Assembly: GCF_920984665.1 (NCBI RefSeq)
Contig: NZ_CAKLBP010000001.1
Location: 276,858 to 340,857, forward strand
Length of the DNA: 64,000 nucleotides
From: Pedobacter sp. Leaf170
GTDB lineage: Bacteria; Bacteroidota; Bacteroidia; Sphingobacteriales; Sphingobacteriaceae
Direction of reading: 5' to 3'
Each line of letters starts with the position of its first letter. The first letter of the stretch is position 1. This document shows, piece by piece, positions 12,644-32,187 of the stretch. The position numbers and the translations under genes are program-made. A model generated the notes under the pieces. That model saw only the letters and a program-made list of their open reading frames with translations, was not told the DNA's origin and did not search any database.

Positions 12644-12699
12644 TGCTAAATATAAGCAAACGAACAATCAATTTAACGCCTATGGCGTAACGCCACTAT

Positions 12700-15620: not shown

Positions 15621-16307
15621 TTATTTAGTAAGAACAGGAATGTCTTCTTTAATCACCCCATCGGCAATGTGTAATATTCTGCTGCCGTATTCAGCATTTT
15701 TTTCTGAATGGGTAACCTGAATAATTGTTATACCTTCTTCCCTATTTAATTTTTGAAAAAGCTGCATAATTTCTTCGGCTTGTGCAGATTGTAAATTACC
15801 GGTTGGTTCATCGGCAAGAATAATGGATGGTTGTGCAGCTAATGCCCTGGCAATACCTACCAATTGCTGCTGACCGCCAGAAAGCTGATTTGGGAACAAA
15901 TCTTTTTTTGCAACGATGTTAAATTTATCAAGCAAATTAGCGATGCGGCTGGCTCTTTCCGAACTACCAATTTTCTTGTAAAGTAATGGCGCTTCTATAT
16001 TTTCATAAACCGTCATTTCATCTATTAAATGGTAAGCCTGAAACACGAACCCGATGTGATTACGATAAAGCTCAATACGCTTACGTTCGCTTAAATTCGT
16101 AACGTCTTCTTGCATAAACTCGTAACTACCATAAGTTGGTTCTTCTAACATTCCGAGAATATTCAAAAGCGTAGATTTACCGGCACCAGACGGACCCATA
16201 ATGGATACAAATTCTCCTTGTTTAATAGTTGTGCTTACATGGCGAAGTACATAATGTTTAATGCCTTTGCTAGCGTAATATTTTTCTATGTTTTTAAGTT
16301 CTATCAT
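15621..16307 (-). CDS. ABC ATP-binding protein, LolD/MacB type, with altered D-loop
   Basis: A 228-residue ATPase of the LolD/MacB/FtsE group. Walker A GPSGAGKST (near residue 39), Q-loop VFQAYHLIDE, signature LSGGQQQ, Walker [11 protein letters not shown] and switch His in VTHSEKN are present. Two normally conserved residues differ: the Arg after the signature is Leu (LSGGQQQLVGIARAL) and the D-loop Asp is Gln (TGNLQS). The other ATPase of the cluster (26358-27056) has the normal residues at both places. It is the last gene of the minus-strand permease array, 76 bases after the fourth permease. It probably energises one or more of the FtsX-type permeases. Confidence 0.9.
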   Translation of the reverse strand: MIELKNIEKYYASKGIKHYVLRHVSTTIKQGEFVSIMGPSGAGKSTLLNILGMLEEPTYGSYEFMQEDVTNLSERKRIELYRNHIGFVFQAYHLIDEMTVYENIEAPLLYKKIGSSERASRIANLLDKFNIVAKKDLFPNQLSGGQQQLVGIARALAAQPSIILADEPTGNLQSAQAEEIMQLFQKLNREEGITIIQVTHSEKNAEYGSRILHIADGVIKEDIPVLTK

Positions 16308-16383
16308 TTTGCAGTATCAAGTATTTAGTATCAAGTATCAAGATAAGTTTTCACTTTAAGCTTTAGTCTTTTAGCTCACAGCT

Positions 16384-18774
16384 TTACTCATATTTAAGTG
16401 CATCGATAGTATTGGCTTTTGCAGCCCGATAAGACCTTAAACTTACCGTAAATACTGTTATTGATATAGATGCAAGCATCGCCACGATGAATGGCCAAAT
16501 ACTTAAATCTGTTCTATATTGAAAAGAGGATAACCATTTAGAAACAAAAATGTAAGCTACTGGCCATGCAACCAAATTCGCAATAAGAACCATCCATAAA
16601 AAAGAACTGTTAAGCATTTTAACCAGTTCAAAGTTAGAAGCTCCTAAAACCTTCCTGATAGCAATTTCTTTAGTTCTTTGTGTTGCCACAAAAGAAATTA
16701 ATCCAAACAAACCAATAAACGAAATGAAGATTACAACGCCTGCAAATACCTTGAATAGGGTACCCATAATGCGCTCTGTTTCATAATAGCCTTTTAAATC
16801 TTCATCAAAAAAGTTGTTTTCGAAAACATAATCAGGATAGGTAGAATTAAAGGCTTGCTCTATTTTTTTAAGTGTTGCAACCATTTCATTTTTCTCTAAT
16901 TTAATGGCAACCGTTTCATAATTTTTTTTGCGTGAGAATATTGCAATCGGCGCTATAGCTTCATGTAAGGAATAATTATTGAAATCTTTTACAACGCCTA
17001 CAATTGGTCCGGGTTTACCCCAAAGTTTTAAGGTTTTACCTATTGCTTCTTCTGGTTTTTTGATATTTAATTTCTTGAGTAAAGTTTCATTTACTACATA
17101 TTCTTTAATTGTATCACTTATACTCAATCCTCTGCCTGCGAGCAAGCTTAAACCAAATGTTTTTATGTAGCCGTCATCAGCAGGTTTAACATTAATTTGA
17201 AAATCTGCATCTTTAGAGCTGTTATAAGAAAAATTAGTTTCGTTATTATTACCAGATGAAGGTGCGCTTGTATTGAAGCTTAAATTTTTAACGCCGTTAA
17301 TATTTAAAATTCTTTCTTTAAATGTATTGTGTTTTGTTAAGCTCAAGCTATCATAAGGCAAATTAATCAAAGCAATTGCATTGGTGTCAAAGCCTAACGA
17401 TTTATTGCGGATATAACTCATTTGCTTAATCACAACTAAGGTGCTTACGATTAAAACTGCTGTAATTGCAAATTGTACCACTACCAATGTTTTACGCAAT
17501 CCTACGCCACCTGCATTTGCCAGTACTTTATTTTTTATGGCTAACGCCGGGCTAAATCCCGACATGATTAATGCCGGATACAAACCTGCTAAAAAGCTAA
17601 CCAAAACCAATAGCGCCATCAAAAATATAAAGATTAACGGGTCGCCAAAAAGGTTAAAATTAACGTCCCCACCAAATAAATTTTCCATTTTTGGCAAGGT
17701 TAACTCAGAGATTACACAAGCTAACAAAATGGATATAGCAGTTATTAATGCCGTTTCTGATAAAAATTGCCAGATTAATTGATTTCGTCTGCTACCCATT
17801 ACCTTCCGCACACCAACTTCTTTACTTCTGCTTATTGCTTGAGCTGTAGCCAAGTTTACAAAATTTATGCATGCAGTAATTAATAAAAACAGACCAATAA
17901 TCGCTAAACCAATAATTTGTTTATATGGCGTGATGAGCCCGGAAAAATTACCATAGTCATCGTTATGATGAATGTCATTTAAGGCTTGAAAATGATGACT
18001 CTCTTTCCCCGGACCATTATCTACGTAATATTTTTTAATGAATTGTTTTAACGTATTATCCAGCTCTGATGGATTTATGCCCTTTTTAAGCAAAATGTAA
18101 CACTCAGAACTTGAAGAAACAGAACCCCAATGTTTCATATTTCTATTGTTATAACTTGCATAACTCATTACAACATGCAATGGAAAACTGCTATTCTGCG
18201 GATTATCCTTTATTACTCCCGTTACTTTAAAATCTTTTGTTGCATCAAAATTAATGCTGTTACCCAATGCTTTTTTCCAATCTCCAAAGTATTTTTTAGC
18301 CGTTTTTTCTGATAAAACAACCGTATTTGGACTCGTGAGCGCTGTTCCGGCATCACCGGCAAGCCATTTATAATTGAAAATTTTAAAAAATTCAGGCTCG
18401 GCGTAAAACAGAGTTTCAGAATCTTTAATTTCTGACTTAGTTGCCGTAGCATTAACTTTAATTATACCGCCGCTTTGCTGAATAGCAGCTACATGTTCAA
18501 ATTGCGAAAAATCGTTTCGCATTGCAGCTGCAAGCGGCAAGGGTACGCCTGCTGATTTAAAATCGTTACCATCAGCATATTTCCATGATGAAACTACACG
18601 GTAAATTCTATCGCCATTGGCATAATCCTTATCAAAGCTTAATTGATAGTTAACAAAAATAAAAATGAGAATACAACTAGCCAGGCCTATTGAAAGACCA
18701 AAAATATTAATGGCTGTATAACCTTTATATTTCCAAAGGTTTCGCAATGCGATTTTTAAATTAAGTTTGAACAT
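16384..18774 (-). CDS. MacB/FtsX-type ABC permease, array member 4
   Basis: A 796-residue inner-membrane protein with two FtsX units. A first helix (residues 21-43) and a MacB-type periplasmic domain are followed by a three-helix FtsX block near 285-410; a helix near 425-447 and second periplasmic domain are followed by a three-helix block near 670-790. Conserved pieces are LNLKIALRNLWK at the start, SKEVGVRKVMGS and TKEIAIRKVLGAS before the helix blocks, and AKANTIDALKYE at the end. Such duplicated permeases are typical of Bacteroidota; proven substrates are lacking, with lipoproteins and antimicrobial molecules as precedents for the superfamily. Confidence 0.9.
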   Translation of the reverse strand: MFKLNLKIALRNLWKYKGYTAINIFGLSIGLASCILIFIFVNYQLSFDKDYANGDRIYRVVSSWKYADGNDFKSAGVPLPLAAAMRNDFSQFEHVAAIQQSGGIIKVNATATKSEIKDSETLFYAEPEFFKIFNYKWLAGDAGTALTSPNTVVLSEKTAKKYFGDWKKALGNSINFDATKDFKVTGVIKDNPQNSSFPLHVVMSYASYNNRNMKHWGSVSSSSECYILLKKGINPSELDNTLKQFIKKYYVDNGPGKESHHFQALNDIHHNDDYGNFSGLITPYKQIIGLAIIGLFLLITACINFVNLATAQAISRSKEVGVRKVMGSRRNQLIWQFLSETALITAISILLACVISELTLPKMENLFGGDVNFNLFGDPLIFIFLMALLVLVSFLAGLYPALIMSGFSPALAIKNKVLANAGGVGLRKTLVVVQFAITAVLIVSTLVVIKQMSYIRNKSLGFDTNAIALINLPYDSLSLTKHNTFKERILNINGVKNLSFNTSAPSSGNNNETNFSYNSSKDADFQINVKPADDGYIKTFGLSLLAGRGLSISDTIKEYVVNETLLKKLNIKKPEEAIGKTLKLWGKPGPIVGVVKDFNNYSLHEAIAPIAIFSRKKNYETVAIKLEKNEMVATLKKIEQAFNSTYPDYVFENNFFDEDLKGYYETERIMGTLFKVFAGVVIFISFIGLFGLISFVATQRTKEIAIRKVLGASNFELVKMLNSSFLWMVLIANLVAWPVAYIFVSKWLSSFQYRTDLSIWPFIVAMLASISITVFTVSLRSYRAAKANTIDALKYE

Positions 18775-18802
18775 TTTTTTTTTAGTTTTACGTGGTAAGT
18801 TC

Positions 18803-18832
18803 TAAGTTGTAAGTATCAAAACTTACAACTTA
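18803..18832. repeat. Intercistronic hairpin, copy 1
   Basis: TAAGTTGTAAGT (18803-18814), six bases, ACTTACAACTTA (18821-18832): a perfect 12-pair stem between two permease genes. The whole intergenic segment is almost the same as that at 21236-21314. No T-run follows on the minus strand, so it is more likely a processing or stability element than a terminator. Confidence 0.7.
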
Positions 18833-18856
18833 AAACGTATTACTTATAACTTTGAA

Positions 18857-21235
18857 TTATTCATATTTCAAAGCGTTAACAGGATTAGCTTTTGCTGTTT
18901 TATATGCCTGAAAGCTGACTGTTAACACTGCTATTGTTAAAGTTGTTACAGCCGAAACAGGAATAATCCACCAGCTAAATTCTGTATGAAATTCAAAATT
19001 GCTTAACCATTTACCCATCGCAAAATAACTGATAGGCGAAGCAATTATAATGGCTACGATTATCATTTTTATAAAAGAAAAGGATAGTAGTTGCATTAAA
19101 TTTGCAACAGATGCACCCAAAACTTTTCTAATGCCAAACTCTTTTGTTCGCTGCTCTGCGCTATAGGTAACCAAGCCAAATAAACCAAGGCACGACACGA
19201 AAATTGCCAGTCCGCCGAAGAGATTGGATAGAATGCCCAAAGTTTTTTCTGATTTATATTTATCCTGATATAAGGAATTTATAAAGGTGATTTCTGCCGG
19301 ATAAGCCGGATTAAAAACTTTAGTAATCTTATTGATGGTTTCTACATTACTCTGCAAGCTATTTTGATTGTTCAAACGCATTGTAATTGTACCGGTTTGC
19401 GCAGGATTTAAAAACACAACCTGCGGATTGTTTGATTTGTAAGGCGAATCCCAAACGTAATCATCAAAAACCCCAATAATATATGCATTGGCACCAAAAA
19501 TCTTCACTCTTTTCCCGATTGGATTTTTGTAACCAAATACTTTGACTGCGGAGGCACTTACCAGTAACCCACTTGTATCTGAAGCGAAATTTTTAGAGAA
19601 ATCTCTGCCTTGCAATAATTTTATACCATTGGTTTTTATGAAATCATAAGTTGTGGCAACCTGATTAAACATTACTGTATTTTCAGGTTTGTTCATCCCA
19701 TCCCAGGCTACATCCATAAAATTGCGACCACGATGAGAAAGGCTAACCGATGACTGGTACATGGAAGTTACTGCACCAGATTTTAAAAGCTCAGTTTTGA
19801 ATAAATCGAATTTTGTTTTCAATTCACCATCCTGCGGAATCTCTACCAAAGTATTTACATCAAACCCTACCGGTTTATTTTTTATGTATTGAATTTGGCG
19901 ATATATAACTAATGTGGAAATAATCAGGATAATTGCGAAACAAAATTGCCCAACAACCAGCACTTGCCTTAGGCTTATATTTAAAAAACCATTTGCAGTT
20001 ATTTTTCTTTTTAGGGTTTGAATTGGATTAAAAGAAGATAAATAAAATGCCGGATAACTTCCTGCAATTAAACCTGTTGCTGTTACAATACCTAAAATTC
20101 CAATCCAACTTGGCAAGTTGAAATACGAAATTCCTAAATTTATATTTAACAAGTGGTTAAATGCCGGTAGGCAAACTTCTAATAAAGCGATTGCGAGTAT
20201 AACAGCAATCAAAGTTAACACCATCGATTCTGTTAAAAATTGAAAAATTAATGAGCTACGGTTTGCACCGATGGTTTTCTTAATACCTACCTCTTTTGCA
20301 CGCTTTTCTGATTTGGCTGTGGCCATATTCATAAAGTTGATGCAGGCAATAAGTAAAATTCCAATTGCTAAGCCAACAAATAGATAAATCTGCTCAATAT
20401 CTCCACCAACTGCTTTACCGTTTTCAAATTTGCCAAATAAATGAAGTTTACTGGCTTGATATAAAAAATTTGGCTGCGATTGTCCATTTTGTTCGGTATT
20501 AGCCTTTACCAGCGCTTCTATTTTACGATTTACTAAATCTACATTTGCATCGGCTGCTAAAGTAACAATCGTTACAAAACTGTAATTAGTCCAGTTTAAA
20601 CTTTTTGCACTCTCATCTACAATTTCGTAAAACGACCAGGGCATTAAAAAATCGAATCGATTGGAACTGTTTTCTGGCAAATCTCTAATTACACCAGTTA
20701 CTATTAAGTTTTCTTTATCTTGATAACGGACAGATTTATTTAAAACATCTGTTGTTCCGAACAAAGTTTTAGCAGTGCTTTCTGTTAAAATTACCGAAAG
20801 CGGATTATTTAATGCTGTGGTTGCATCGCCAGCAATAAACTTGTAATCGTACATTTTAAGAATGTCTGGCTCAGCGAATTTCGAATTCTTTTTATAGCTG
20901 TTTTGTCCATTAGCGATAAGGCTTTTCTTGCCATAGTCCATACGGACAACATATTTAACCTCAGGCAAATTTTGCTTTAATAGCGGACCAAGAGCCGTTG
21001 TAGAGCCATTAAATGTGGCGTTAATTTTATTGTTATCTCCAGGAACATTTGTCATAGCCATATAAACGTTCTCGTAATTCCTGGCTTGCTTATCAAAATT
21101 CCATTCGTAAGAAACGTATAGCAACAACATAAGGCAGGCTGCAAGACCAATAGCTAAACCTATCACATTAATCAATGACGAGATTTTATTCTTCCAAAGG
21201 TTTCGCAGGGCGATTTTTAAATTTAATTTAAACAT
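18857..21235 (-). CDS. MacB/FtsX-type ABC permease, array member 3
   Basis: A 792-residue paralogue with the same two-unit layout: MFKLNLKIALRNLWKNK start, first helix near residues 20-42, three-helix FtsX blocks near 280-410 and 670-785, and an end in AKANPVNALKYE. The first FtsX unit carries RAKEVGIKKTIGANRSS and the second TKEFGIRKVLGAS. It lies 82 bases upstream of member 4 and 79 bases after member 2; both gaps contain near-identical hairpin sequence. It lacks its own promoter as far as I can see, so it should be read from the adaptor promoter. Confidence 0.9.
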   Translation of the reverse strand: MFKLNLKIALRNLWKNKISSLINVIGLAIGLAACLMLLLYVSYEWNFDKQARNYENVYMAMTNVPGDNNKINATFNGSTTALGPLLKQNLPEVKYVVRMDYGKKSLIANGQNSYKKNSKFAEPDILKMYDYKFIAGDATTALNNPLSVILTESTAKTLFGTTDVLNKSVRYQDKENLIVTGVIRDLPENSSNRFDFLMPWSFYEIVDESAKSLNWTNYSFVTIVTLAADANVDLVNRKIEALVKANTEQNGQSQPNFLYQASKLHLFGKFENGKAVGGDIEQIYLFVGLAIGILLIACINFMNMATAKSEKRAKEVGIKKTIGANRSSLIFQFLTESMVLTLIAVILAIALLEVCLPAFNHLLNINLGISYFNLPSWIGILGIVTATGLIAGSYPAFYLSSFNPIQTLKRKITANGFLNISLRQVLVVGQFCFAIILIISTLVIYRQIQYIKNKPVGFDVNTLVEIPQDGELKTKFDLFKTELLKSGAVTSMYQSSVSLSHRGRNFMDVAWDGMNKPENTVMFNQVATTYDFIKTNGIKLLQGRDFSKNFASDTSGLLVSASAVKVFGYKNPIGKRVKIFGANAYIIGVFDDYVWDSPYKSNNPQVVFLNPAQTGTITMRLNNQNSLQSNVETINKITKVFNPAYPAEITFINSLYQDKYKSEKTLGILSNLFGGLAIFVSCLGLFGLVTYSAEQRTKEFGIRKVLGASVANLMQLLSFSFIKMIIVAIIIASPISYFAMGKWLSNFEFHTEFSWWIIPVSAVTTLTIAVLTVSFQAYKTAKANPVNALKYE

Positions 21236-21260
21236 TTTAAGAGTTTTACGTGGTAAGTTC

Positions 21261-21290
21261 TAAGTCGTAAGTATCAAAACTTACAACTTA
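21261..21290. repeat. Intercistronic hairpin, copy 2
   Basis: TAAGTCGTAAGT (21261-21272), six bases, ACTTACAACTTA (21279-21290); same as copy 1 apart from one base that gives a wobble pair. The identity with copy 1 continues into the last codons of the upstream permease gene. Confidence 0.7.
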
Positions 21291-21314
21291 AAACGTATTA
21301 CTTATAACTTTGAA

Positions 21315-23705
21315 TTATTCACATTTCAAAGCATTAACCGGATTAGCTTTTACGGCTTTTCTGGCTTGTACGCTTACGGTAATTACTGTTAATAAAATTG
21401 TTGCCAATGCACTGATTATAAATGGAATAATTGGCAAATCAATTCGATAAGCAAAGGTATCCAGCCATTTTTTTGTTAGGACATAAGCTATGGGCCATGA
21501 TATGATATTGGCAATCATCACCATTATAAAGAATGATGAATTGATTAATTTGAAAATCTGAATATCGCTTGCACCTAAAATTTTACGAACAGCAATTTCT
21601 TTAATTCTACCATTGGTGATGTATTTTGCAAAAGCGAACAAGCCTAAAATGGCAATGAAAATGGTAAGCAAAGCCGCAGCAAAAAACACGGATTGTAGTT
21701 GCTCCTGTTTTTTAAACAATCTGCCATAAAGCTCATCTAAAAACTCATATCTAAAATCTTCGCCATCTTTTGGATTAATTTGAGGCCATAGTGCTTTCAA
21801 AGCGGTTAATGCATCAGCCATTTTATTTTCCTCAATTTTCAACATAATTTGAGTTTTGTAATTTCCACAAGGATTTTTAATGGCATAAATAGTTGGCTGC
21901 ACAGCAGTTTCAAAACCCTGGGCTTTAAAATCTTTTGCTACACCTACAATTTTATAATCTATATTGCATCCTTTAATGGTTTTGCCTATCGGGTCTTTTA
22001 ACCCGTATTTAGCCACAGCACTCTCATTAATAACAACAGAATTTGCGGTATCGGTTTTAAAAGCAGTAGAGAAAAAACGTCCTTCTTTTAGTTTAACATC
22101 AAGGGTTTCGAAATAGTCAAATTCCACATCCACAAAATCAACATTAGCCTTAAGCCCATTAGTTGTATAGCTATTAGTACCGTTTTCGGCACCGTTAGGG
22201 ATATCGCTTGCCACTGTAGCAGATTTAATTCCCGGAATTTTCAAAACCTTATCTCTAACCGACTCAAAATTTAGCGAACCGAATTTTGAAGGATTATTAA
22301 AAAGCGTTAAATTTTTAATGTAAACGACCTGATTGGCAGAAAAACCTAAATCCTGAGAACGCATGTATTTAAGTTGCGAATTGATAATGAGTAAGCCAAT
22401 AATAAAGATTACTGCAATGCTAAACTGAAATATCAATAAGCCATTTCTTAACCATGAGCTTTGTTTACTTGTAGAAAAGTTTCCTTTTAAAACTAAGGCC
22501 GGTTTAAAGCCAGATAAAACCACTGCAGGATAAATGCCGGCTGCAAGCGTTATCAAACACAATACCATTGGCAATTGCCAGAATAGATTGTTATCAATAC
22601 GCCATATAGATAATTGCACTTGAAAAAGATTATTAAAAACTGGAAGTAGCAGTTCGGCAACAATTAAAGCTAAAGTGGTTGCTACGGTGCACTGAATAAA
22701 AATTTCTACAAGAAATTGAGTGGTAAGCTGGGCACGAAATGCACCCATAACCTTTTTAACACCAACTTCTTTTGCCCGCTTGGTAGCCTGTGCTATGCTC
22801 AAATTGGTAAAATTGATACATGCTATAACTAAAATTAAGATACCAAGAACCGAAAGCGCTACAAGGATTTTATATGGAGCATCGTTTCCGGCAAAAGGTT
22901 TTAAATGCAAATTAGCCAAAGGATCTAAAAATGTGGAAATAGCCTTAATTTCTTCAATTGTTTTTAAATCCGATTCTCCTTTTAATAATTCTGCTCTGTA
23001 TAATTTGGTAATTTTTTGCTGAAGATTATCAACATCCGTACCTGGTTTTACCTTAATATAGGTTGTATAATTATTCATTCCATAATCTTCACCCTGCCCT
23101 ATTTCATTTCCAATAGATATGCCATCGAAAGTTATATTAGAATGTGGATCGCTAATTATCGAACCATCAAACTTACTTCTTACACCGGAGTTACTTGCAC
23201 CCATACCAACCATTTCCGGTTTATTATCTTTCTTATCTGGAAATAGCGTTTTCATACTTTCAACGTTTAAATAAGAAAGCCTTTCTACATCACCAGATGG
23301 TTTTTGTAATCCACCCATTGGTTTTATGTTTAATATTTTAGCTGCATTATAATCTGCCTGCATAAAATTTTTGGCAAAAACGGTGTTCTTCCCATTTTTT
23401 AAGGTCAGCTCAAAAAAACCACTTTTGGTAATCCCGGCATTTTCAACCTCCGGGAAATTTTGTTTTAAAGCTTTATGTAGCGGCGGAGCTGTATAGTTGG
23501 TTTTAAACTCCGGATAAATACGTCCAACTACATAAATATTTTTGTAATTTGGATTCGACTTATCAAAACTGGTTTCATAAGTAAAATACATCATCACCAA
23601 AATAAAAGAGGCCAAAGCAATCGCTAAACCACCAACATTTATTAAGGTAATGCCCTTGTTTTTCCAAAGGTTTCGCAAAGCGATTTTAAGATTGAGTTTG
23701 AACAT
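21315..23705 (-). CDS. MacB/FtsX-type ABC permease, array member 2
   Basis: A 796-residue paralogue. It starts MFKLNLKIALRNLWKNKG and ends AKANPVNALKCE, with the same arrangement of helix blocks as the other members. The periplasmic domains are the most divergent of the four: the N-terminal one has extra sequence around residues 130-190 (GGLQKPSGDVERLSYLNV and following), and the second FtsX unit reads GRIKEIAVRKILGAS. This divergence in the outer domains with conserved membrane blocks suggests different partners or cargo. The gene lies 76 bases after member 1. Confidence 0.9.
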   Translation of the reverse strand: MFKLNLKIALRNLWKNKGITLINVGGLAIALASFILVMMYFTYETSFDKSNPNYKNIYVVGRIYPEFKTNYTAPPLHKALKQNFPEVENAGITKSGFFELTLKNGKNTVFAKNFMQADYNAAKILNIKPMGGLQKPSGDVERLSYLNVESMKTLFPDKKDNKPEMVGMGASNSGVRSKFDGSIISDPHSNITFDGISIGNEIGQGEDYGMNNYTTYIKVKPGTDVDNLQQKITKLYRAELLKGESDLKTIEEIKAISTFLDPLANLHLKPFAGNDAPYKILVALSVLGILILVIACINFTNLSIAQATKRAKEVGVKKVMGAFRAQLTTQFLVEIFIQCTVATTLALIVAELLLPVFNNLFQVQLSIWRIDNNLFWQLPMVLCLITLAAGIYPAVVLSGFKPALVLKGNFSTSKQSSWLRNGLLIFQFSIAVIFIIGLLIINSQLKYMRSQDLGFSANQVVYIKNLTLFNNPSKFGSLNFESVRDKVLKIPGIKSATVASDIPNGAENGTNSYTTNGLKANVDFVDVEFDYFETLDVKLKEGRFFSTAFKTDTANSVVINESAVAKYGLKDPIGKTIKGCNIDYKIVGVAKDFKAQGFETAVQPTIYAIKNPCGNYKTQIMLKIEENKMADALTALKALWPQINPKDGEDFRYEFLDELYGRLFKKQEQLQSVFFAAALLTIFIAILGLFAFAKYITNGRIKEIAVRKILGASDIQIFKLINSSFFIMVMIANIISWPIAYVLTKKWLDTFAYRIDLPIIPFIISALATILLTVITVSVQARKAVKANPVNALKCE

Positions 23706-23781
23706 TGTAGTTTCAAGGAGTTAGTATGAAGTATCAAGACCTTGCAAATAGCCTTAGGCTTTTTGCTTTAAGCTTTCAGCT

Positions 23782-26151
23782 CTATTCATATTTCAAAGCA
23801 TCAACCGGATTGGCTTTTGCAACTTTTATCGATTGAATGCTGACTGTTAAAATGGCAATAAATAGTGATAAGGAAACTGCAATAAGAAATGGTATCACAG
23901 ATATTGACACTCTATATTCAAAAGCCGATAACCATTTGTTAATGATAATATAAGCTAATGGGAAAGCGATTAAATTTGCAATTGCTACGAGCTTGATAAA
24001 ATCTTTGTTTAACAGCGTTAATATGCTTGCTGTATTAGCGCCCAAAACCTTGCGTATGCTGATTTCTTTTTTACGTTGCTCGGCCATAAATAGCGCCAAG
24101 CCTAATAAGCCTAAGCAAGAAATAAAAATTGCAAAACCACCAAACCAGTTTGATAGCGTACCTAAAAGTTTTTCATCCTGAAATTTTACTTCAAAAGACT
24201 CGTCAACAAATTTTCTTTGCACCGGATATTCTGGTTCAATTTGCTTAACCAATTCATCAATTTTTGCTACTGAAGCACTTATGTTTTGTGCCGGATTTAA
24301 GCGTACAAGAATGACCTGGATATCATCCATATAACTTGGATAAAATACCATTGGCGAAACTTTCTGATAGGCACTTTCTACTACAAAATCTTTCACAACA
24401 GCTACAATGGTTCTCTCTGTTCCCCAATATTTAATTTTAGCGCCTATCGGATTTTTAAGTCCCATCATTTTAATAGCAGATTCGTTAAACATAACCTTAT
24501 TGCTATCACTTTTTGATGTTGAAGAAATCTCTCTGCCTGCAACTAATTCTGTACCTATTGTTTTGATAAAATCATCTCCAACACCTCGATTATTGAATAA
24601 AATCGACTCACCCTTTGTTTTGCCATCCCAGTAAACATCAGTTGTATTGTTTCCACTTTCTGTTATGTCTTTACTAAACGTAGTTACATTGCTTGCTGCA
24701 CCAGATTTTAAAAGTTGCGCCTTTAACAGTTCTAATTTACTCTTCTCGCTTACTCTGCCCCTAACTGCTATTTGAACCAGATTAGATTTATCATACCCAA
24801 TTGGTTTGTTTTTTACATAGTTAAGTTGCTGATAAATAACTGATGTGCACACAATTAAACAGGCTGCAAAAACAAATTGAATTACCACTAAAATCTTTCT
24901 AATGGATACTGAAGAATCTGACTTAATTTTTAAGCCTTTTAATACTTTTATGGGTTCAAAAGAAGATAAATACAAAGCTGGATAACTACCAGCGATAAAG
25001 CCTGTAAAAATCATCAAGCCTAAAAGTGTGCTCCAAAAAGTGATGCTTTTGTAATTGATTTGAAGCTCAATATTCAATAAATTATTAAAGTATGGCAAGC
25101 TTACTTCTACCAGAATGAAAGCCAAAACGCCAGATAATAAGGTAATAAAAACTGATTCTAATAAAAACTGACCGATTAAAGATTTTCTGGTTGAGCCGAT
25201 AGCTTTTCTTATTCCAACCTCCTTAGCCCGGCGCTCTGAACGAGCGGTTGATAAGTTCATAAAATTTACGCAGGCAATTAGTAAAATACAAAATGCAAGT
25301 AGAAGGAATATTTTTAACTGTTCTATTTTGCCACCAACAGATTTTCCATTTTGAAAATCATCGTACAGATGCCATTTTGTGTAAGGATGCAATAATGCCT
25401 TAGCTGTATTACCTTGCTGGTTACGTTTATAAACATCCAATATGCTTGAATTTGCAGCATCAAAAAAGCTATTATCTTTTAATTGAGCCACCGTTAAGCA
25501 CATGTTATTTCCCCAATTTTTATCTTTTGCCCAAGGCTCTCTTTTCACAAAAAGTTCCCATGGCATTAGGCATTCAAAAATTATAGAGTTATTTGCGGGG
25601 ATGTCTTCAATTACAGCCTCAACCTTCAAAACATCCTGATTATCAAGCTTAACTGTTTTATTTATCGGGTCTTCATTTCCAAAAAGTTTTTTCGCAAATG
25701 ATTCAGTCAAAATAATTGTGTTAACGCCTTTTAAAGCCTTATCAGGATTGCCTTTAACAAACTTATAATCGAATATTTTGAGGAAAGATGGGTCAGCAAA
25801 ATTTACTCTCGAATTAATCCTTTTATCATCAACCGTAATTAATTTTGTTGATGGATAAGTAGAATGCGAGGCATATTTAACGCCAGGAATTTTAGCGGCA
25901 ACTTCATCAGCCATGGCATTCGGTGTCCAGGCCCAACTGTAAATTTTACCATTGGCCGGAGCATTTTGATAGATTACATAGGTTTTATCACTGTTAGAAA
26001 AACCCTTATCAAAACTCCATTCGTAGGCAACGTATAGCAACAAAATCAAGCAACTCGCCAAACCAATGGCCAGTCCTCCGATATTAATCAAAGAAAACCC
26101 TTTGTTTTTCCAAAGGTTTCGCAAAGCGATTTTTAAATTTATTTTGAACAT
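23782..26151 (-). CDS. MacB/FtsX-type ABC permease, array member 1
   Basis: A 789-residue paralogue and the first permease read from the operon. It starts MFKINLKIALRNLWKNKG, has a helix near residues 21-43, periplasmic domain, FtsX block near 275-405 with RAKEVGIRKAIGSTRKS, second helix near 420, second periplasmic domain, and final block with KKEISIRKVLGAN, ending AKANPVDALKYE. It is closer to member 3 than to members 2 and 4 by eye, for example in LILLLYVAYEWSFDK against LMLLLYVSYEWNFDK. It is separated from the ATPase gene upstream by 206 bases, the largest gap in the operon. Confidence 0.9.
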   Translation of the reverse strand: MFKINLKIALRNLWKNKGFSLINIGGLAIGLASCLILLLYVAYEWSFDKGFSNSDKTYVIYQNAPANGKIYSWAWTPNAMADEVAAKIPGVKYASHSTYPSTKLITVDDKRINSRVNFADPSFLKIFDYKFVKGNPDKALKGVNTIILTESFAKKLFGNEDPINKTVKLDNQDVLKVEAVIEDIPANNSIIFECLMPWELFVKREPWAKDKNWGNNMCLTVAQLKDNSFFDAANSSILDVYKRNQQGNTAKALLHPYTKWHLYDDFQNGKSVGGKIEQLKIFLLLAFCILLIACVNFMNLSTARSERRAKEVGIRKAIGSTRKSLIGQFLLESVFITLLSGVLAFILVEVSLPYFNNLLNIELQINYKSITFWSTLLGLMIFTGFIAGSYPALYLSSFEPIKVLKGLKIKSDSSVSIRKILVVIQFVFAACLIVCTSVIYQQLNYVKNKPIGYDKSNLVQIAVRGRVSEKSKLELLKAQLLKSGAASNVTTFSKDITESGNNTTDVYWDGKTKGESILFNNRGVGDDFIKTIGTELVAGREISSTSKSDSNKVMFNESAIKMMGLKNPIGAKIKYWGTERTIVAVVKDFVVESAYQKVSPMVFYPSYMDDIQVILVRLNPAQNISASVAKIDELVKQIEPEYPVQRKFVDESFEVKFQDEKLLGTLSNWFGGFAIFISCLGLLGLALFMAEQRKKEISIRKVLGANTASILTLLNKDFIKLVAIANLIAFPLAYIIINKWLSAFEYRVSISVIPFLIAVSLSLFIAILTVSIQSIKVAKANPVDALKYE

Positions 26152-26231
26152 CTTTTGAGTATTACGTGGTAAGTTTTAAGTTCTAAGTGCATTACGTAAA
26201 ACGTATCACTTATAACCTCCAAGCGCCTTAT

Positions 26232-26260
26232 CCGAATCTTCCCATCCGGGAAGATTTCGG
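26232..26260. repeat. Palindrome in the ATPase-permease gap
   Basis: CCGAATCTTCCC (26232-26243) and GGGAAGATTTCGG (26248-26260) pair with one bulged base around a four-base loop. It lies between the ATPase gene 26358-27056 and the first permease. No T-run follows in the direction of transcription, so partial attenuation or RNA processing is more likely than full termination. Confidence 0.55.
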
Positions 26261-26357
26261 TTGGCCTATCATTAACTAAAACTATTTTTTTAAGGTTAAG
26301 GGCTAATGTCACTCATGCATAACCATACGCCTTAAACCTTTCACCTTTAAATATTTT

Positions 26358-27056
26358 CTATATCAATTCCTCGTTTCTGCTTTTGTTTACTTTCTCAGAA
26401 ATCACATGGCCATCTTTAAGGTTTATGATTCTGTTAGAAAAACTGGCGTCGTGACTGGAGTGTGTAACCATTACAATTGTAGTCCCGGTTTCATTCAGTT
26501 CGCAAAGCAATTCCATTACCTCATTACCATGAGAACTATCTAGGTTTCCTGTTGGCTCATCTGCTAAAACTAACTTTGGCTTAGTAACCAAAGCCCTTGC
26601 TACAGCCACACGCTGCTGCTGTCCGCCAGAAAGTTGCTGAGGAAAATGGCCACTGCGATTAACAATGTTCATTCTTTCGATAATTTCGTTAACCAAAGCT
26701 TTGCGTTCGGCAGCAGGAACTTTATTGTAGATTAAAGGCAATTCAATGTTTTCGAAAACTGTTAATTCATCAATTAAATTAAAATTTTGGAATACGAAGC
26801 CCATATTCCGCTTGCGGAAATTTGAGCGTTCTCTATCATTTAAAGTTAAAAGCTCGGTATCAATAAATTTGTAACTTCCACTTTCGGGTTTATCTAACAA
26901 ACCCATAACATTTAATAAGGTAGATTTTCCACAACCAGATGGCCCCATTATCGAAACAAATTCACCTTCCTTAACATGAAGGTTGATTCCATTTAGTGCA
27001 GTTGTTTCAACTTCTTCGGTTTTATAAACTTTTTCAAGATTTTCTATTCTTATCAT
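26358..27056 (-). CDS. ABC ATP-binding protein, LolD/MacB type
   Basis: A 232-residue ATPase with all canonical elements: Walker [11 protein letters not shown]-loop [10 protein letters not shown], signature [15 protein letters not shown], Walker [12 protein letters not shown]-loop NLDSS and switch His VTHSSHD. It belongs to the LolD/MacB/FtsE group that drives mechanotransmission-type transporters. Its ATG overlaps the stop of the small secreted protein gene by four bases (ATGA), so they are coupled. The next gene downstream is the first of the four permeases. Likely the main motor of the system. Confidence 0.94.
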
Positions 27057-27460
27057 GAGGCAATTTTTTTGATGGTTAGTTTAATATTATTTTGTTGAGC
27101 ATGTTTCAACTCAACTTCAAAATCCTTTTCACCTAATACTTTATGGTAAATTTTAATTGTGTAAGTTCCGGGCTTTAATTCTATTTCAGTAGTTTCTGCT
27201 CTTAACGGAACATCCATTTTCAGTTTCCCATCCTGAATAAAATTAACTTTATCGAGTAAAGCTAAATCTCCGGCTAAAGTTAAATTTGCCTTCGAAAGAT
27301 TGGTAGTTGTTTTTCCGCCTGATTTACTGAATATATTCATTTCATAGCTCGCACCATTTTTATTATCGATCCAATTAGATTCTTTTTTAAAAACACTTTG
27401 GGCATTTGCCATGTACGATAAGCAGGTAATGGCAATTGTGATTAAAATTTTAGTCATCAT
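27053..27460 (-). CDS. Small secreted protein with PEGA-like C-terminus
   Basis: A 135-residue protein with a cleavable signal peptide (MMTKILITIAITCLSYMANAQ) and a beta-rich mature part. The end, ELKPGTYTIKIYHKVLGEKDFEVELK, looks like a PEGA or similar surface beta-sandwich strand pattern. I do not recognise a named family. It sits between the adaptor gene (one base gap) and the ATPase gene (four-base overlap), so it is an integral member of the operon. A periplasmic accessory role for the exporter is a reasonable inference, nothing more. Confidence 0.7.
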   Translation of the reverse strand: MMTKILITIAITCLSYMANAQSVFKKESNWIDNKNGASYEMNIFSKSGGKTTTNLSKANLTLAGDLALLDKVNFIQDGKLKMDVPLRAETTEIELKPGTYTIKIYHKVLGEKDFEVELKHAQQNNIKLTIKKIAS

Positions 27461-27461
27461 T

Positions 27462-28706
27462 TTATTTATTAATTTCTACCTGGTCATATTGATTAAATTG
27501 GTCGTAAGATGACGTGATAACCTCATCGCCTTTTTGCAAGCCTTGTAATATTTCGTAATAAAGGTAATTTTTCCTTCCGATTTTAACATTTTTCTTAGTC
27601 GCTTTACCATTGTTTACCACAAACACCCACGAGCCGCCTGTACTTTGAAAAAACTGACCTTGAGCCAGAAGTAATGATTTGCTATTATCAGATAATGTAA
27701 GTTTGGTTTGTAAAGACAAGCCTCTACGCAAATCGATTGGAGCACTACCTTTAAACACCATCTCAACCTGAAACTGACCGGCAGTTACCTCTGGTATAAC
27801 TTTGCTAACTGTTAAACTGTAAGTTTTACCATTAAATTCGCATGTAGCAGTTTGTCCCTCCTTAACGCGGTTGATGTAATATTCATCAACACCAGCTTGC
27901 AATTTATAGCCTTGCATTACATCAATCTTTCCAATCATTTCGTTAGAATTGTAAGATTTACCGATAACCGGGTCATAAGAAGATAGCTTACCCGAAACCG
28001 GTGCTTTAATTGTCATGTTTTCGATATTTGTTTTTATCATTTCTAAACTTTCGTTCATTTGGCTCATAGATTGGTCAATTTGTGAAAGTTGCATTTTACG
28101 GCTTTGATTCTCTTGCTTTATCGCTTGCCTAACAATTTTCAGTTTACCTTGATAATATTCATAATCCTGAATCGATTTATTGAATTCTTGCTGAGTAATT
28201 ACCTTTTTAGAAAACAAAGCGCTATCTAACCTATATTGGCGGGTTGCAGTGCGGAGGTTGTTCTCGACGTCTAAAACATCCTGATTTAAAATCCTTTGAT
28301 TTTGCTCTAAATCTAACCTCGATTTTCTCAATTGATTAATTTGTTCGGTGGCTGCAGTTTGCTGAGATGTGTAACCCATCATTGCATTAGAATTTTCGAT
28401 TCTTAAAAGGGGTGTACCTTTAACTACAGTAGCGCCATTCTCAGTAAAAATCTGGGCAACTGTTCCACCTTCTGAAGAGCTTACAATTACCGATGTTAAA
28501 GGAACAACACTTGCATTTAATAAAACTACATCTTCAAAGTCTCCATATTCAACTTTGCTAATGGTTAATTTATCTGCATCGGCACTGTAAGTTTTCTTTA
28601 ATGACAAGGTGTAGCCGTATATAACTACTGCTATAAAAGCAATTGCCCCGCCTATTACGATTAAGTTTTTGGTGGTGAATTTTTTCTTCTCTATTTTCTT
28701 ATCCAT
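27462..28706 (-). CDS. HlyD/RND-type periplasmic adaptor (membrane fusion protein)
   Basis: A 414-residue adaptor, counted from the ATG at 28706; a TTG twelve codons upstream is possible but less likely. One N-terminal transmembrane helix (residues ~13-34, LIVIGGAIAFIAVVIYGYTLS), a barrel-sandwich/lipoyl half near 60-110 (GTPLLRIEN), a long coiled-coil hairpin near 115-225 rich in Gln, Leu and Arg, the second lipoyl half (IKAPVSGKLSSYDPVIG) and beta-barrel and membrane-proximal domains. It is the first gene of the efflux operon. Adaptors of this type link MacB-like permeases to outer-membrane channels; no TolC-type gene is present in the window. Confidence 0.9.
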   Translation of the reverse strand: MDKKIEKKKFTTKNLIVIGGAIAFIAVVIYGYTLSLKKTYSADADKLTISKVEYGDFEDVVLLNASVVPLTSVIVSSSEGGTVAQIFTENGATVVKGTPLLRIENSNAMMGYTSQQTAATEQINQLRKSRLDLEQNQRILNQDVLDVENNLRTATRQYRLDSALFSKKVITQQEFNKSIQDYEYYQGKLKIVRQAIKQENQSRKMQLSQIDQSMSQMNESLEMIKTNIENMTIKAPVSGKLSSYDPVIGKSYNSNEMIGKIDVMQGYKLQAGVDEYYINRVKEGQTATCEFNGKTYSLTVSKVIPEVTAGQFQVEMVFKGSAPIDLRRGLSLQTKLTLSDNSKSLLLAQGQFFQSTGGSWVFVVNNGKATKKNVKIGRKNYLYYEILQGLQKGDEVITSSYDQFNQYDQVEINK

Positions 28707-28737: not shown

Positions 28738-28752
28738 ACCAAGCTTGTGCCA
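28738..28752 (-). promoter_or_regulatory. Candidate sigma-54 (-24/-12) promoter of the efflux operon
   Basis: On the minus strand TGGCAC (28752-28747) fits the -24 element, followed by AAGC and TTGG (28742-28739). The consensus -12 element is TTGC, one base further away, so the match there is imperfect. The position, about 20-30 bases before the adaptor ATG at 28706, and the divergent sigma-54 activator gene both support the call. Confidence 0.45.
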
Positions 28753-28908
28753 AAAGACTATAGCATAATTAAATACCTGACATACAACGTTTTAAATCAA
28801 ATTAAAAAAAATTAATGTTCATTTTCGAACAGTTCATGTACGGGAGCGGACAGTTTAATTAAATTTGCTTAAAGGAGGTGGTTTAGACGGTTTAGGTTTA
28901 AGAATTTA

Positions 28909-29094
28909 TACCTCACCCCTTCATCCCCTCTCCTTGAAGAGAGGGGGGCGTGGAGCAGAAATTTAAAGTTAAACATAAATACAAATAAAATTATTAAGAT
29001 AGCTTTGAATCAATCACAATCCGAAATTTCCCTCTCTTTAAGGAGAGGGACAACACAACAGAACAAATACTACTAACTTTAATAGGGTGAGGTA
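28909..29094. mobile_element. MITE-like element, unit 1
   Basis: A 186-base unit with perfect 10-base terminal inverted repeats, TACCTCACCC and GGGTGAGGTA. Inside are two subterminal hairpin arms, CCCCTCTCCTTGAAGAGAGGGG near the left and CCCTCTCTTTAAGGAGAGGG near the right, which can also pair with each other. There is no reading frame. It is nearly the same as the unit at 29130-29314. Confidence 0.7.
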
Positions 29095-29129
29095 AATAGT
29101 ATAAGCCAAATGAGGAAGGTTAAATAAAA

Positions 29130-29314: not shown

Positions 29315-29357
29315 AAAAACAAATACGCAATACCCAAGAGCAATAAAAAAATATAAT

Positions 29358-30728
29358 ATGCTAGATGCCACAGTATTAATAATTGATGACGACGACGACA
29401 TTCTTCTGAGTGCCCGTTTATTTTTGAAGCAGCAGGTTAAACAGGTAATTACCTGCAAATCGCCGAAAGAAATTAATGTTTTACTTAGTAAAAATGAAGT
29501 AGACATTATCCTGTTGGATATGAACTATCAAAAAGGCGCAAGCGATGGCAGAGAAGGTTTATATTGGCTGGAACATATATTATCAATTGATAAAGATTAT
29601 GTTGTTATATTAATGACTGCCTTTGGAAACGTGGAGCTTGCTGTTAAAGCCATTAAAAATGGAGCAACCGATTTTATCCTTAAACCCTGGGAAAATGAAA
29701 AGCTTTTCGCCACAATTTCTGCAGCATCAAAACTTCGTGCTTCAACAAGAAAGGTTAAAAAGCTCGAAAAAATTCATACCTCGCTACAAAAAGATATGGC
29801 CAGAGGTTTTGAACACATTGTTGGCAAAGCTGATGTAATAACCAACCTTCAAAATACGCTTTTAAAAGTTGCACCAACAGACGCAAATGTTTTAATATTA
29901 GGCGAAAATGGAACGGGAAAACAGGTATTTGCCTACGAAATACATGGAAATTCGCAGCGTAAAAATCAGGTTTTTATGCATGTAGATTTAGGCTCATTAA
30001 ACGAAAACCTTTTTGAAAGCGAACTTTTCGGTTATGCTAAAGGCGCTTTTACTGATGCAAAAGAAGATAAACCCGGGAGATTTGAACTTGCAGATGGCGG
30101 AACAATATTTTTAGATGAGATTGGAAACTTAACTTTGCCCTTACAGGCTAAATTATTAAGCGTGCTACAAAATAGAACGGTTATCCGATTAGGAGAAAGC
30201 AAAGAGCGTAAAGTGAATGTTCGTTTAATTACAGCTACAAATATGCCTTTGAATGAAATGGTTGCTAAAAATACCTTCCGCCAGGATTTACTTTTTAGAA
30301 TCAATACCGTTGAATTATTATTACCGCCGCTAAGAAAACGCGGTAACGATATTTTATTGCTTTCTGAGCACTTTATGCAGGTATTTAGCACTAAGTATCA
30401 TAAAGAATCACGAAGTTTAAGCCCCAGAGCAAAAGAAGTATTACTAAATTACAATTGGCCAGGCAATGTTAGAGAACTGCAACATGTTTTGGAACGTGCT
30501 GTAATTATGAGCGATGGGAACGAAATAACCGACCAGGATTTACAGCTTAGCCCGCAGCGGTTTGCACAAAACAATAACCTGCCCGATGAAATGGCACTTG
30601 AAGATATGGAGAAGATGATGGTACAAAAAGCCATTGATAAACACAAAGGAAATATTTCTAAAGCCGCAGCAGAGCTAGGTTTAACCCGGGCAGCTTTATA
30701 CAGAAGAATAGAAAAATTTGGAATATAA
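29358..30728 (+). CDS. NtrC-family sigma-54-dependent response regulator
   Basis: A 456-residue activator. Receiver domain residues 1-120 with acidic pocket DDDD and phospho-acceptor Asp54; AAA+ domain from about 150 with Walker A GENGTGKQ (182-189), the sigma-54 contact loop as GAFTDA (229-234) where the consensus is GAFTGA, and Walker B TIFLDEIG; and a Fis-type HTH at the C-terminus (ISKAAAELGLTRAALYRRIEK). It is divergent from the efflux operon and is followed by a histidine kinase, so it very likely activates the operon through the candidate -24/-12 site. Aspartate in the GAFTGA loop is seen in other Bacteroidota members from memory. Confidence 0.93.
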   Translation: MLDATVLIIDDDDDILLSARLFLKQQVKQVITCKSPKEINVLLSKNEVDIILLDMNYQKGASDGREGLYWLEHILSIDKDYVVILMTAFGNVELAVKAIKNGATDFILKPWENEKLFATISAASKLRASTRKVKKLEKIHTSLQKDMARGFEHIVGKADVITNLQNTLLKVAPTDANVLILGENGTGKQVFAYEIHGNSQRKNQVFMHVDLGSLNENLFESELFGYAKGAFTDAKEDKPGRFELADGGTIFLDEIGNLTLPLQAKLLSVLQNRTVIRLGESKERKVNVRLITATNMPLNEMVAKNTFRQDLLFRINTVELLLPPLRKRGNDILLLSEHFMQVFSTKYHKESRSLSPRAKEVLLNYNWPGNVRELQHVLERAVIMSDGNEITDQDLQLSPQRFAQNNNLPDEMALEDMEKMMVQKAIDKHKGNISKAAAELGLTRAALYRRIEKFGI

Positions 30729-30828: not shown

Positions 30829-32187
30829 ATGTTTTACAAACGCTTTACCTTTCGTTTAATATCACGCTTGCTCATCATTAATTTGCTGGGCTATTTACTG
30901 TTTTATTTAATTACGACAACCGAATTATGGTTTACAATTATTGGTGTAAGCTTAATTTTATTAGGTTCGGTAATTTCGCTTTATTACTATATAAATGAAA
31001 TCCGATCGGATATTAAACGCTTTATTTTAGCCGTTAAAACCCGCGACCATACCTTAAATTTTAAGAATAAAGCCACAAAAGGTAGTTTCCCAGAATTATA
31101 TGAATCTTTTGGGGAGATACTTCAAGTGCATAAACAGATTCGTTTAGAGCAAGAGGCAATGTTTCAGCTTATTAAAACTATTTTGGAGCAGGTTCCAGTT
31201 GGTGTAATTGTGATAAATAAAACTCCGACAGCGCAAAATAACGAAGAAATCGCTTTTTTTAATCAGGCAGCCTCTAACCTATTAGGCGTACCGGCATATA
31301 AGTATTGGCATCGTTTAAAACAGCATTTACCAAACTTTACAAACGAGGTTGAACAAATATCAAGTGGTGGAAAAAGATTTCTGGAGCTTAAGATTCAAGA
31401 TAAATTGATTCAATTATCCACCGAAGTTATTCCGCTAAATCTGTATGCAAAGGATTATACCATCATAAGTTTTCAAAACATTAAGGATGAAATTGAACAG
31501 AAGGAAACTGAAGCATGGAACAGATTGATAGGTGTAATATCTCACGAAATATTAAATTCCATCACCCCTATTAGTTCATTATCTGATACCATAAACAGCA
31601 TGGTAACGGATAAAGAAAACCTCGATTTGGATGAAATGGAAGATCTGAAAACGGCACTGCAAACCATTAAACGTCGCTCTGCCGGATTACTTGATTTTGT
31701 TAAAGATTACCGCCTTATAGCTGAATTACCAACACCAAATCTCGAATCGCATACCATAGGCGAAATATTGAAACACATAAAAGTGTTGATGCAGCCTTTT
31801 GCAAAAGTTAAAAATGTTAGGTTAGATGTAGAACAAACAAGCTCTAAAATTACGATTCAGCTCGATTTAAAACTGATTGAGCAAGTTTTGATAAACCTGA
31901 TTACGAACAGTATTTACGCTGTAGAAGAACTTGAAAACCCACACATTTCGGTTAATTATAGGTTAGAACATACTAAATTATACATAGATGTTACCGATAA
32001 CGGAAAAGGCATTGAGCCCGATGATTTAGAGAAAATTTTTGTGCCTTTTTACACTACCCGAAAAAATGGTTCGGGCATTGGTTTAACCATAAGTAGAAAC
32101 ATTATGAAAATGCATCGCGGTAGTATAGAAGTTGCTTCTACACCAAATGAACAAACTACGTTTTCGATACTATTTAATTACGTTTAA
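30829..32187 (+). CDS. Sensor histidine kinase, NtrB/NtrY-like
   Basis: A 452-residue membrane kinase. Two close N-terminal helices (about residues 12-30 and 33-55) with hardly any periplasmic loop between them, a cytoplasmic linker, a PAS-like domain near 110-220, the phospho-acceptor His239 in the box SHEILNSITPISS, and a catalytic domain with N box NLITNSIYAVEE, G1 DNGKGIE, F box FVPFYTT and G2 GSGIGLTIS. Lack of an external sensor domain implies a membrane or cytoplasmic cue, perhaps envelope stress. It lies 100 bases after the response regulator and should be its cognate partner. Confidence 0.92.
   Translation: MFYKRFTFRLISRLLIINLLGYLLFYLITTTELWFTIIGVSLILLGSVISLYYYINEIRSDIKRFILAVKTRDHTLNFKNKATKGSFPELYESFGEILQVHKQIRLEQEAMFQLIKTILEQVPVGVIVINKTPTAQNNEEIAFFNQAASNLLGVPAYKYWHRLKQHLPNFTNEVEQISSGGKRFLELKIQDKLIQLSTEVIPLNLYAKDYTIISFQNIKDEIEQKETEAWNRLIGVISHEILNSITPISSLSDTINSMVTDKENLDLDEMEDLKTALQTIKRRSAGLLDFVKDYRLIAELPTPNLESHTIGEILKHIKVLMQPFAKVKNVRLDVEQTSSKITIQLDLKLIEQVLINLITNSIYAVEELENPHISVNYRLEHTKLYIDVTDNGKGIEPDDLEKIFVPFYTTRKNGSGIGLTISRNIMKMHRGSIEVASTPNEQTTFSILFNYV

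Follow-up and report, generated by a model that had tools for sequence, protein, structure and literature searches.

Well-studied transporters of the Type VII ABC (ATP-binding cassette) superfamily are described, in the available part of PMC5985334, as having one motor for each permease or permease pair. We analysed a stretch of 64,000 nucleotides from Pedobacter sp. Leaf170 (contig NZ_CAKLBP010000001.1, positions 276,858 to 340,857; hereafter the window), in which eight open reading frames (ORFs) form one minus-strand run at 15621-28706, encoding an HlyD-type adaptor, a small secreted accessory protein (SSP), a canonical ATPase (ABC1), four double FtsX/MacB permeases (PA, PB, PC and PD) and a variant ATPase (ABC2). 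An initial annotation of the window had listed these ORFs; all eight were found on the minus strand where it had placed them, and the roles it gave to the adaptor, the canonical ATPase, the four permeases and the second, variant ATPase are borne out by Pfam matches and motifs. The two ATPases are 48% identical to each other, and identity among the four permeases is 32-46%. A divergent NtrC-type regulator and a histidine kinase, encoded just beyond position 28706, very likely belong to the same system. With a probability of roughly two in three, we read the locus as a MacB-type exporter that combines a fixed chassis with exchangeable permeases working on a shared motor.

Judged by its fold and its parts, the locus is probably a member of the Type VII ABC superfamily, with MacB_PCD and FtsX domains that score over the Pfam cut-off in two stretches each in all four permeases; a MacAB-like mode of action is also probable. 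In YbbAP(-TesA) of Escherichia coli, too, one polypeptide forms the permease, with a pair of MacB-like units and a pair of periplasmic domains, and the ATPase is separate; the present locus differs in having a second, different ATPase, an adaptor and more than one permease. According to the available part of PMC5985334, two transmembrane (TM) helices link the units of YbbP, whereas our model of PA contains eight long helices. Each permease half has a MacB core and an FtsX domain, as in MacAB-TolC, and the HlyD-type adaptor is also common to both systems; unlike in MacAB-TolC, the nucleotide-binding domain (NBD) is not fused to the N-terminus of the permease but forms a separate ATPase, the permease is doubled and present in several alternative versions, and no TolC-type gene lies at the locus. 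Among NCBIfam names, DarD scores best for both ATPases and DarC for the adaptor, and DarB comes second for each permease, yet all fall short of the cut-offs (NF038007, NF038008, NF038010), with 168.5 of 700 bits for the best permease, 287.1 of 375 for ABC1, 253.7 of 375 for ABC2 and 234.2 of 450 for the adaptor. The best-scoring name for all four permeases is ADOP (TIGR03434), which matches three of them over the full length and PB from residue 208, at 254.2-323.7 bits against a cut-off of 622.3 bits; here, however, the permeases are flanked by ATPases and are not orphans. A Bce-type module likewise has a two-component system with a kinase devoid of a periplasmic sensor domain (judged for the window kinase from hydropathy; a PAS domain is also present), but BceB has one periplasmic domain in the available part of PMC5985334, whereas two MacB_PCD stretches occur in each permease here. 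The adaptor, the second ATPase and the permease array further set the locus apart from a Bce-type module. The novelty lies in how the parts are combined, with a motor, an adaptor and a switch that stay frozen and a set of complete permeases that varies and is at times exchanged; literature searches, limited to open-licence papers, brought up no description of such permease arrays.

Each of the four permeases is a doubled MacB unit, i.e. two fused 4-TM units, and is pseudo-dimeric rather than a half-transporter. Considering that the MacB unit is doubled, a single chain can form the whole transmembrane domain. An AlphaFold model of PA, made from 76 sequences, had a mean pLDDT of 83.3 and a pTM of 0.77, and its long helices can be read as two sets of four TM helices with one periplasmic domain per set. 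Fold comparison gave YbbP as the best whole-chain match (Z 24.4, 674 residues, rmsd 9.8); a whole-chain match was also obtained with BceB of the BceABS structure (Z 21.1, 478 residues, rmsd 8.5), and single halves match MacB, LolC/E, HrtB and FtsX. The first periplasmic domain resembles a domain of a Porphyromonas permease (3is6: Z 22.8, rmsd 2.8, 220 residues).

A contig scan with ABC2 gave 414 relatives, the best 80 of which are mostly from Pedobacter and have neighbours that vary by species. ABC1 was found in 99 of 119 Pedobacter genomes (E<=1e-80), its best place being 85-100% identical. We compared 78 loci, namely 77 fetched ones and that of the window; the 21 other genomes with ABC1 were left out, some of which had a short contig or ABC1 close to a contig end, and one of the loci compared (G118) was covered for 17 kb only. 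The number of permease ORFs between ABC1 and ABC2 ranges from 0 to 10 if fragments are counted and from 0 to 9 for full-length genes, with no ORF in 1 locus, two in 6, three in 10, four in 16, five in 16, six in 14, seven in 8, eight in 4, nine in 2 and ten in 1, and some loci have 1-3 further double permeases past ABC2. Average-linkage clustering of the 420 full-length permeases (378 flanked by ABC1 and ABC2, the other 42 located past ABC2) at a distance cut of 0.42 yielded 14 types with at least 6 members, of which type J occurs after ABC2 only, together with many rare types; a FastTree tree was also built and supports no statement made here. The window array reads A-D-C-B. Types A and B are each present in 63 loci, type C in 44 and type D in 38, and no type occurs in all 78. 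For the full-length permeases between the ATPases, we counted 60 distinct combinations and 63 distinct strings, and even among pairs of loci with a chassis identity (ABC1, ABC2 and adaptor) of at least 0.95 the combination was the same in 15 of 217. Array content follows relatedness only loosely, with a Spearman coefficient of 0.50. The order of the types is mostly kept, in 419 of 461 ordered pairs (single-copy type pairs seen at least five times). The chassis varies less than the permeases: mean pairwise identity over the 78 loci is 0.941 for ABC1, 0.857 for ABC2 and 0.819 for the adaptor, compared with 0.58-0.92 within permease types of at least two members. Arrays also vary in the 16 genomes that consist of a single contig, indicating that assembly gaps are not the cause of the variation. 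In G107, ABC1 and ABC2 are separated by 32 bases, with one permease immediately past ABC2 and a second one at a distant site. The distance from ABC1 to ABC2 in G029 and G069 is 13.5 and 12.9 kb, about 3 kb above the other four-permease loci, and something else seems to be inserted there.

A search with PA at E<=1e-60 returned the four array permeases in the window genome and no PA-like permease in any of the 14 ABC1-free genomes searched (at least 95% complete; 20 genomes in total have no ABC1 at E<=1e-80), a threshold that misses more distant FtsX permeases such as one with an 853-aa frame in the window genome. The latter, with two FtsX domains, lies away from the array (G000:C1:984392-986815).

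The motifs of the two ATPases differ in a constant manner. ABC1 is canonical in all 78 loci, with the D-loop LDS, in which the Asp is kept, and the signature LSGGQQQRV. ABC2 lies on the strand of ABC1 and downstream of it in each of the 78 loci, and its signature LSGGQQQLV and its D-loop LQS, with Gln for Asp, are found in every one of them (the context reads GSLQS in G107); the eight loci from outside Pedobacter all have LHS or LNS as the ABC2 D-loop. The Walker A motif and the Walker B glutamate of ABC2 are kept throughout. Its H-loop is present in 77 of the loci; the exception is G083, in which the ABC2 frame stops short of it after 175 residues and five full-length permeases remain. Of the 16 Pedobacter genomes listed for both ABC1 and ABC2, 12 contain the two ATPases and 4 lack both. 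As in heterodimeric NBD pairs, two NBDs thus always occur together and one has an altered motif, and ABC1 and ABC2 are perhaps the two halves of one asymmetric motor. From general NBD structure, pairing of ABC1 with ABC2 would be expected to give one standard composite site and one with the odd signature and D-loop of ABC2. The invariant loss of the D-loop Asp would then mark a possible asymmetric motor within the Type VII ABC superfamily.

The initial annotation had remarked that the four permeases keep common N- and C-terminal motifs and differ in their periplasmic domains, and this proved true when 377 array permeases from all 78 loci were compared, a further one being left out for its odd start. 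Conservation per 20-residue block is 3.76 bits at the N-terminus, 3.84 at the C-terminus and 3.42 and 3.23 in the two coupling segments, and the periplasmic domains are the least conserved parts, with 1.4-2.4 bits. The consensus letters of the N-half and C-half coupling segments differ at several positions, a difference that is compatible with a fixed seat for each of the two ATPases but no proof of it.

The same annotation had suggested that one motor might serve several permeases, as heteromeric or as exchangeable transporters. Exchangeable permeases on one motor gain comparative support from the fixed chassis, the variable array content, the constant cytosol-facing motifs and the absence of PA-like permeases from the ABC1-free genomes searched. 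Heteromeric permeases are not needed, as both MacB halves are present in each chain, arrays of two permeases exist in 6 loci, and G107 has its single neighbouring permease. The chassis would comprise the adaptor, ABC1, ABC2 and the divergent NtrC/kinase pair, which would act on a promoter of the sigma-54 type. In the most likely working unit, a single permease would be combined with one copy each of ABC1 and ABC2 and with an adaptor ring, which may dock to a TolC-type channel encoded elsewhere. Because the cytosolic ends and coupling segments of the permeases are constant, the permeases could take turns on the shared motor, and the two differing periplasmic domains of each permease would choose the cargo. 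Array content would change by loss, duplication and whole-gene exchange between species. This scheme builds on established observations, namely the architecture of the locus, its variability, the pattern of conservation, a probable exchange of one block and the conserved regulatory sites; repeated junctions may have a role in the exchange, and the cargo class and an induction by envelope stress are presumed. Our first guess on the role is defence against envelope-active compounds, with lipid handling and self-export as the main alternatives. Slightly short of an even chance is what we would give to the full combinatorial version, in which an asymmetric ATPase pair and one adaptor serve an evolving, cassette-like library of complete permeases that Pedobacter species gain, lose and trade. 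If it is true, the array would determine which cargoes a species can handle, with a motor and a switch that do not change. A frozen chassis with reshuffled permeases would represent a natural experiment on the part that sets the cargo, in which a permease swap should swap the cargo, and the large double-permease families of Bacteroidota would become testable.

One locus carries a probable trace of exchange. In G094, for which the donor and own panels were picked after the content comparison had been seen, the type C permease shows a protein identity of 0.88 to another clade (chassis 0.85) versus 0.73 to the nearest chassis relatives, and the type F permease 0.92 (chassis 0.82) versus 0.73; type A is weakly discordant, as its identity of 0.87 to the other clade (chassis 0.85) compares with 0.76 for the nearest chassis relative but with 0.84 for G088, which is on its own side. 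At the DNA level, about 6.0-12.9 kb of the fetched stretch is 0.82-0.93 identical to the other clade versus 0.69-0.84 to its own. The flanks, with the adaptor and ABC1 before the block and the type B gene after it, match the own side, and the type K gene directly before the block matches both panels poorly. This block of two, perhaps three, permeases is probably the result of an exchange with another clade. Mosaic permeases were considered and rejected: conflicts between halves were found in 3 of 420 permeases, all with weak matches (0.36-0.51), and no within-genome pair of different types has a half-to-half identity difference above 0.2. The small number of half-conflicts implies that exchange seems to act on whole genes.

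The spacers between the genes give a local signal. At least 20% common 10-mers were found in 84 of 511 spacer pairs within a genome and, between genomes, in 89 of 3623 pairs before permeases of the same type and 401 of 23596 of different types. A dedicated recombination site in the spacers is not supported, no search for an integrase having been made. Spacers differ by species and are alike locally, a pattern that local copying or gene conversion would produce. Identity between the spacers before PC and PD reaches 99% over 75 bases, compared with 34% between the two proteins, and both spacers fold as a 16-bp hairpin; two other spacers do not, with z values of -0.45 and 0.27. Among 131 spacers (60-90 bases), z averages -2.87 against mononucleotide shuffles and is below -2 in 82, compared with 10 of 120 coding controls. 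Elsewhere in the window genome, matches to the PC and PD spacers are partial, with at most 36 bases at 83-97% identity or an identity of 73-80%, and such partial relatives of the hairpin sequence are scattered over the genome. The spacer sequences of other species differ, some having repeated TTGATAC-like words.

The region upstream of the adaptor is conserved as well. Promoter counts cover 77 loci, G054 with its damaged adaptor start being left out. A pair of dyads, TGTYC-N6-GNACR, occurs at a constant spacing of 21 bp in 76 of 77 loci (0.0 in shuffled sequence), and an element GG-N10-G(C/T/A) is present in 77 of 77 with the final, loosest pattern (1.36 of 78 in shuffled sequence). This pattern was loosened stepwise, from 35 exact and 31 loose matches in 78 loci, through 62 of 78 in a strict count in which the search stretch missed the site in some loci, to 77 of 77. 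The distance between the -24/-12 element and the second dyad is 78-80 bases in 75 of 76 loci, and the window element has GT instead of the consensus GC. As in NtrC-type sigma-54 operons, a -24/-12 element, upstream dyads and an adjacent activator gene are recognisable by sequence, which points to control by the divergent NtrC/kinase pair, with the response regulator predicted to bind the putative dyad sites. No wider regulon emerged, as the tandem-dyad pattern (at most 1 mismatch) was found nowhere else in the window genome. In the window kinase, the hydrophobic stretches are joined by a loop of about 6 residues according to hydropathy. Within the array, sigma-70 promoter-like sites are no commoner than chance (57 versus 51.0 expected), terminator-like sites number 9 versus 9.6 expected, and the spacers contain no minus-strand terminator-like site. 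A direct repeat of 153 bases, 95% identical (28944-29096 and 29164-29316), lies between the response regulator gene and the dyads.

The absence of an outer-membrane channel, also noted in the initial annotation, was upheld for the locus: Pfam identified no TolC-type protein among the ten locus proteins, and the 31 OEP matches in the window genome all lie away from it. In the family sample, 13 genera besides Pedobacter have relatives of ABC2, with 62-67% identity. The gene immediately past ABC2 is of the OEP/TolC type in 4 of 8 non-Pedobacter loci (L072, L077, L078, L080) and encodes a hydrolase in L076; the ORF lists of the three remaining loci contain no OEP gene. Matches to PA listed on the same strand in front of ABC2 number at least 18 within 61 kb in G119 (one partial), at least 10 in G174, at least 6 in G196 and at least 4 in G120. 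Large double-permease runs were seen at G119:C34:326436-387510 (at least 18 listed) and G207:C1:554745-585610 (at least 10 listed), the latter about 200 kb from the ABC2 of its genome.

Several points weigh against exchangeable permeases on a shared motor. Permeases clearly discordant with their chassis number 20 of 391. PD of the window is one of these, with 0.81 identity to G102 (chassis 0.87) versus 0.59 to G061 (chassis 0.94, the nearest that carries type B), and some of the discordant permeases, PD included, may be old paralogues that were differentially lost. Gene ends are hardly more alike within than between genomes, the first 54 bases of different types being 0.794 versus 0.763 identical and the last 36 bases 0.750 versus 0.731, which indicates mostly general conservation, although conserved ends could still be used as a recombination substrate. 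Type labels hang on an arbitrary cut, other cuts giving 10 to 116 clusters, and the sample of one genome per species is blind to turnover at the strain level. The absence of permeases from genomes without the chassis fits a one-step loss of the whole locus equally well. Minus-strand sigma-70-like sites are present in the spacers at 26312 (between ABC1 and PA) and at 16341 and 16334 (between PD and ABC2). Variable periplasmic and constant TM and cytosolic parts are common in the MacB/FtsX family, so that this contrast by itself is no proof of motor sharing. What speaks for sharing of the motor is gene content and conservation, and a different cargo for each permease is something that we infer.

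Among the alternatives, the strongest, though unlikely, is a Bce-like sensing function, in which the permeases would serve chiefly as receptors and the kinase would read out their cycling, so that more permeases would widen the range of antimicrobial peptides detected. The short loop between the hydrophobic stretches of the kinase, the uniqueness of the tandem dyad in the genome and the presence of the BceABS structure among the best whole-chain matches of PA are in line with it, and so is the flux sensing described for Bce modules in the available part of PMC10314905. The cytoplasmic PAS domain of the kinase could, however, itself be the sensor, the window kinase being the one examined, and an adaptor is present here. 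To our knowledge, Bce modules have no adaptor. Next in rank, and unlikely too, is lipid or lipoprotein handling modelled on LolCDE and YbbAP-TesA, with permeases that extract different inner-membrane lipids or lipoproteins and an array shaped by lipid chemistry, not by an arms race. In fold, YbbP is the closest match over the whole chain and LolCDE subunits match the halves, and removal of hydrophobic compounds from the inner membrane has been proposed for YbbAP-TesA (PMC12646458, available part). Against this stand the genomes in which ABC1 is missing at the threshold used (20 of 119) and the different contents of arrays with near-identical chassis, which are unlike a housekeeping route; sigma-54-type control moreover suggests conditional use.

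The remaining explanations are less probable. Export of the producer's own peptides, as by DarBCD with darobactin, is improbable: Dar names score best or second for the locus proteins, all below cut-off, and Pedobacter makes diverse lipopeptides (PMC12181424, available part), but no recognisable biosynthetic enzyme was found among the locus ORFs, for which no dedicated biosynthetic-cluster search was made. Tandem birth and death of paralogues that share no motor, leaving permeases redundant or decaying, could account for fragments between the ATPases (G002, G009, G050, G058) and for same-type duplicates within the same genome (50 pairs over all genomes); considering that 378 permeases between ABC1 and ABC2 are full-length with strongly conserved motifs, and that the units stay whole, we regard it as quite improbable. 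A heteromeric complex, in which several array permeases assemble on the motor as a different composite in each species, would benefit from the mostly conserved type order and from the lack of minus-strand terminator-like sites in the spacers, which makes a single transcript possible. The presence of both MacB halves in every chain, which makes a partner permease unnecessary, the two-permease arrays, the lone permease beside ABC1-ABC2 in G107 and the lack of a universal type render it very improbable.

Table 1. Features of the permease-array locus and its control region (window positions).
Feature	Position	Strand	Remarks
ABC2, variant ATPase, 228 aa	15621..16307	-	Pfam ABC_tran; D-loop LQS, signature LSGGQQQLV
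PD, double permease, type B, 796 aa	16384..18774	-	2x MacB_PCD + 2x FtsX
Hairpin spacer before PD	18775..18856	-	z -5.40
PC, double permease, type C, 792 aa	18857..21235	-	2x MacB_PCD + 2x FtsX
Hairpin spacer before PC	21236..21314	-	z -5.06
PB, double permease, type D, 796 aa	21315..23705	-	2x MacB_PCD + 2x FtsX
PA, double FtsX/MacB permease, type A, 789 aa	23782..26151	-	2x MacB_PCD + 2x FtsX; AlphaFold model
ABC1, canonical ATPase, 232 aa	26358..27056	-	Pfam ABC_tran 1.2e-34
SSP, small secreted accessory protein, 135 aa	27053..27460	-	Signal-like N-terminal stretch, judged by eye
MFP, HlyD-type periplasmic adaptor	27462..28706	-	Pfam HlyD_3 1.6e-12; NCBIfam TIGR01730 over cut-off
Sigma-54-type -24/-12 element TGGCACAAGCTTGGT	28738..28752	-	46 nt before adaptor ATG
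Dyad TGTTCGAAAATGAACA, putative activator site	28816..28831		
Dyad TGTCCGCTCCCGTACA, putative activator site	28837..28852		21 bp from TGTTCGAAAATGAACA dyad
NtrC-type sigma-54-activating response regulator, divergent	29358..30728	+	Sigma54_activat 1.5e-62, Response_reg, HTH_8
Sensor histidine kinase	30829..32187	+	PAS, HATPase; two N-terminal hydrophobic stretches

The adaptor is present in all 78 loci, the match in G054 being 142 residues only; in the window its start was taken as the ATG at 28706, the mechanical ORF beginning at a TTG at 28742. SSP has no Pfam or NCBIfam match and no PDB relative at E<=1, and occurs in 6 of 78 loci, the window counted (blastp E<=1e-5). On the same strand, 63 bases past ABC2, lies a gene (14760-15557) whose product we take to be a BtuF-like binding protein. 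Further away, at 12281-12667, a 128-aa ORF between what are presumably trigger-factor-like and ClpP-like genes looks like a four-helix-bundle protein, which we assume to be of the 23S rRNA intervening sequence type.

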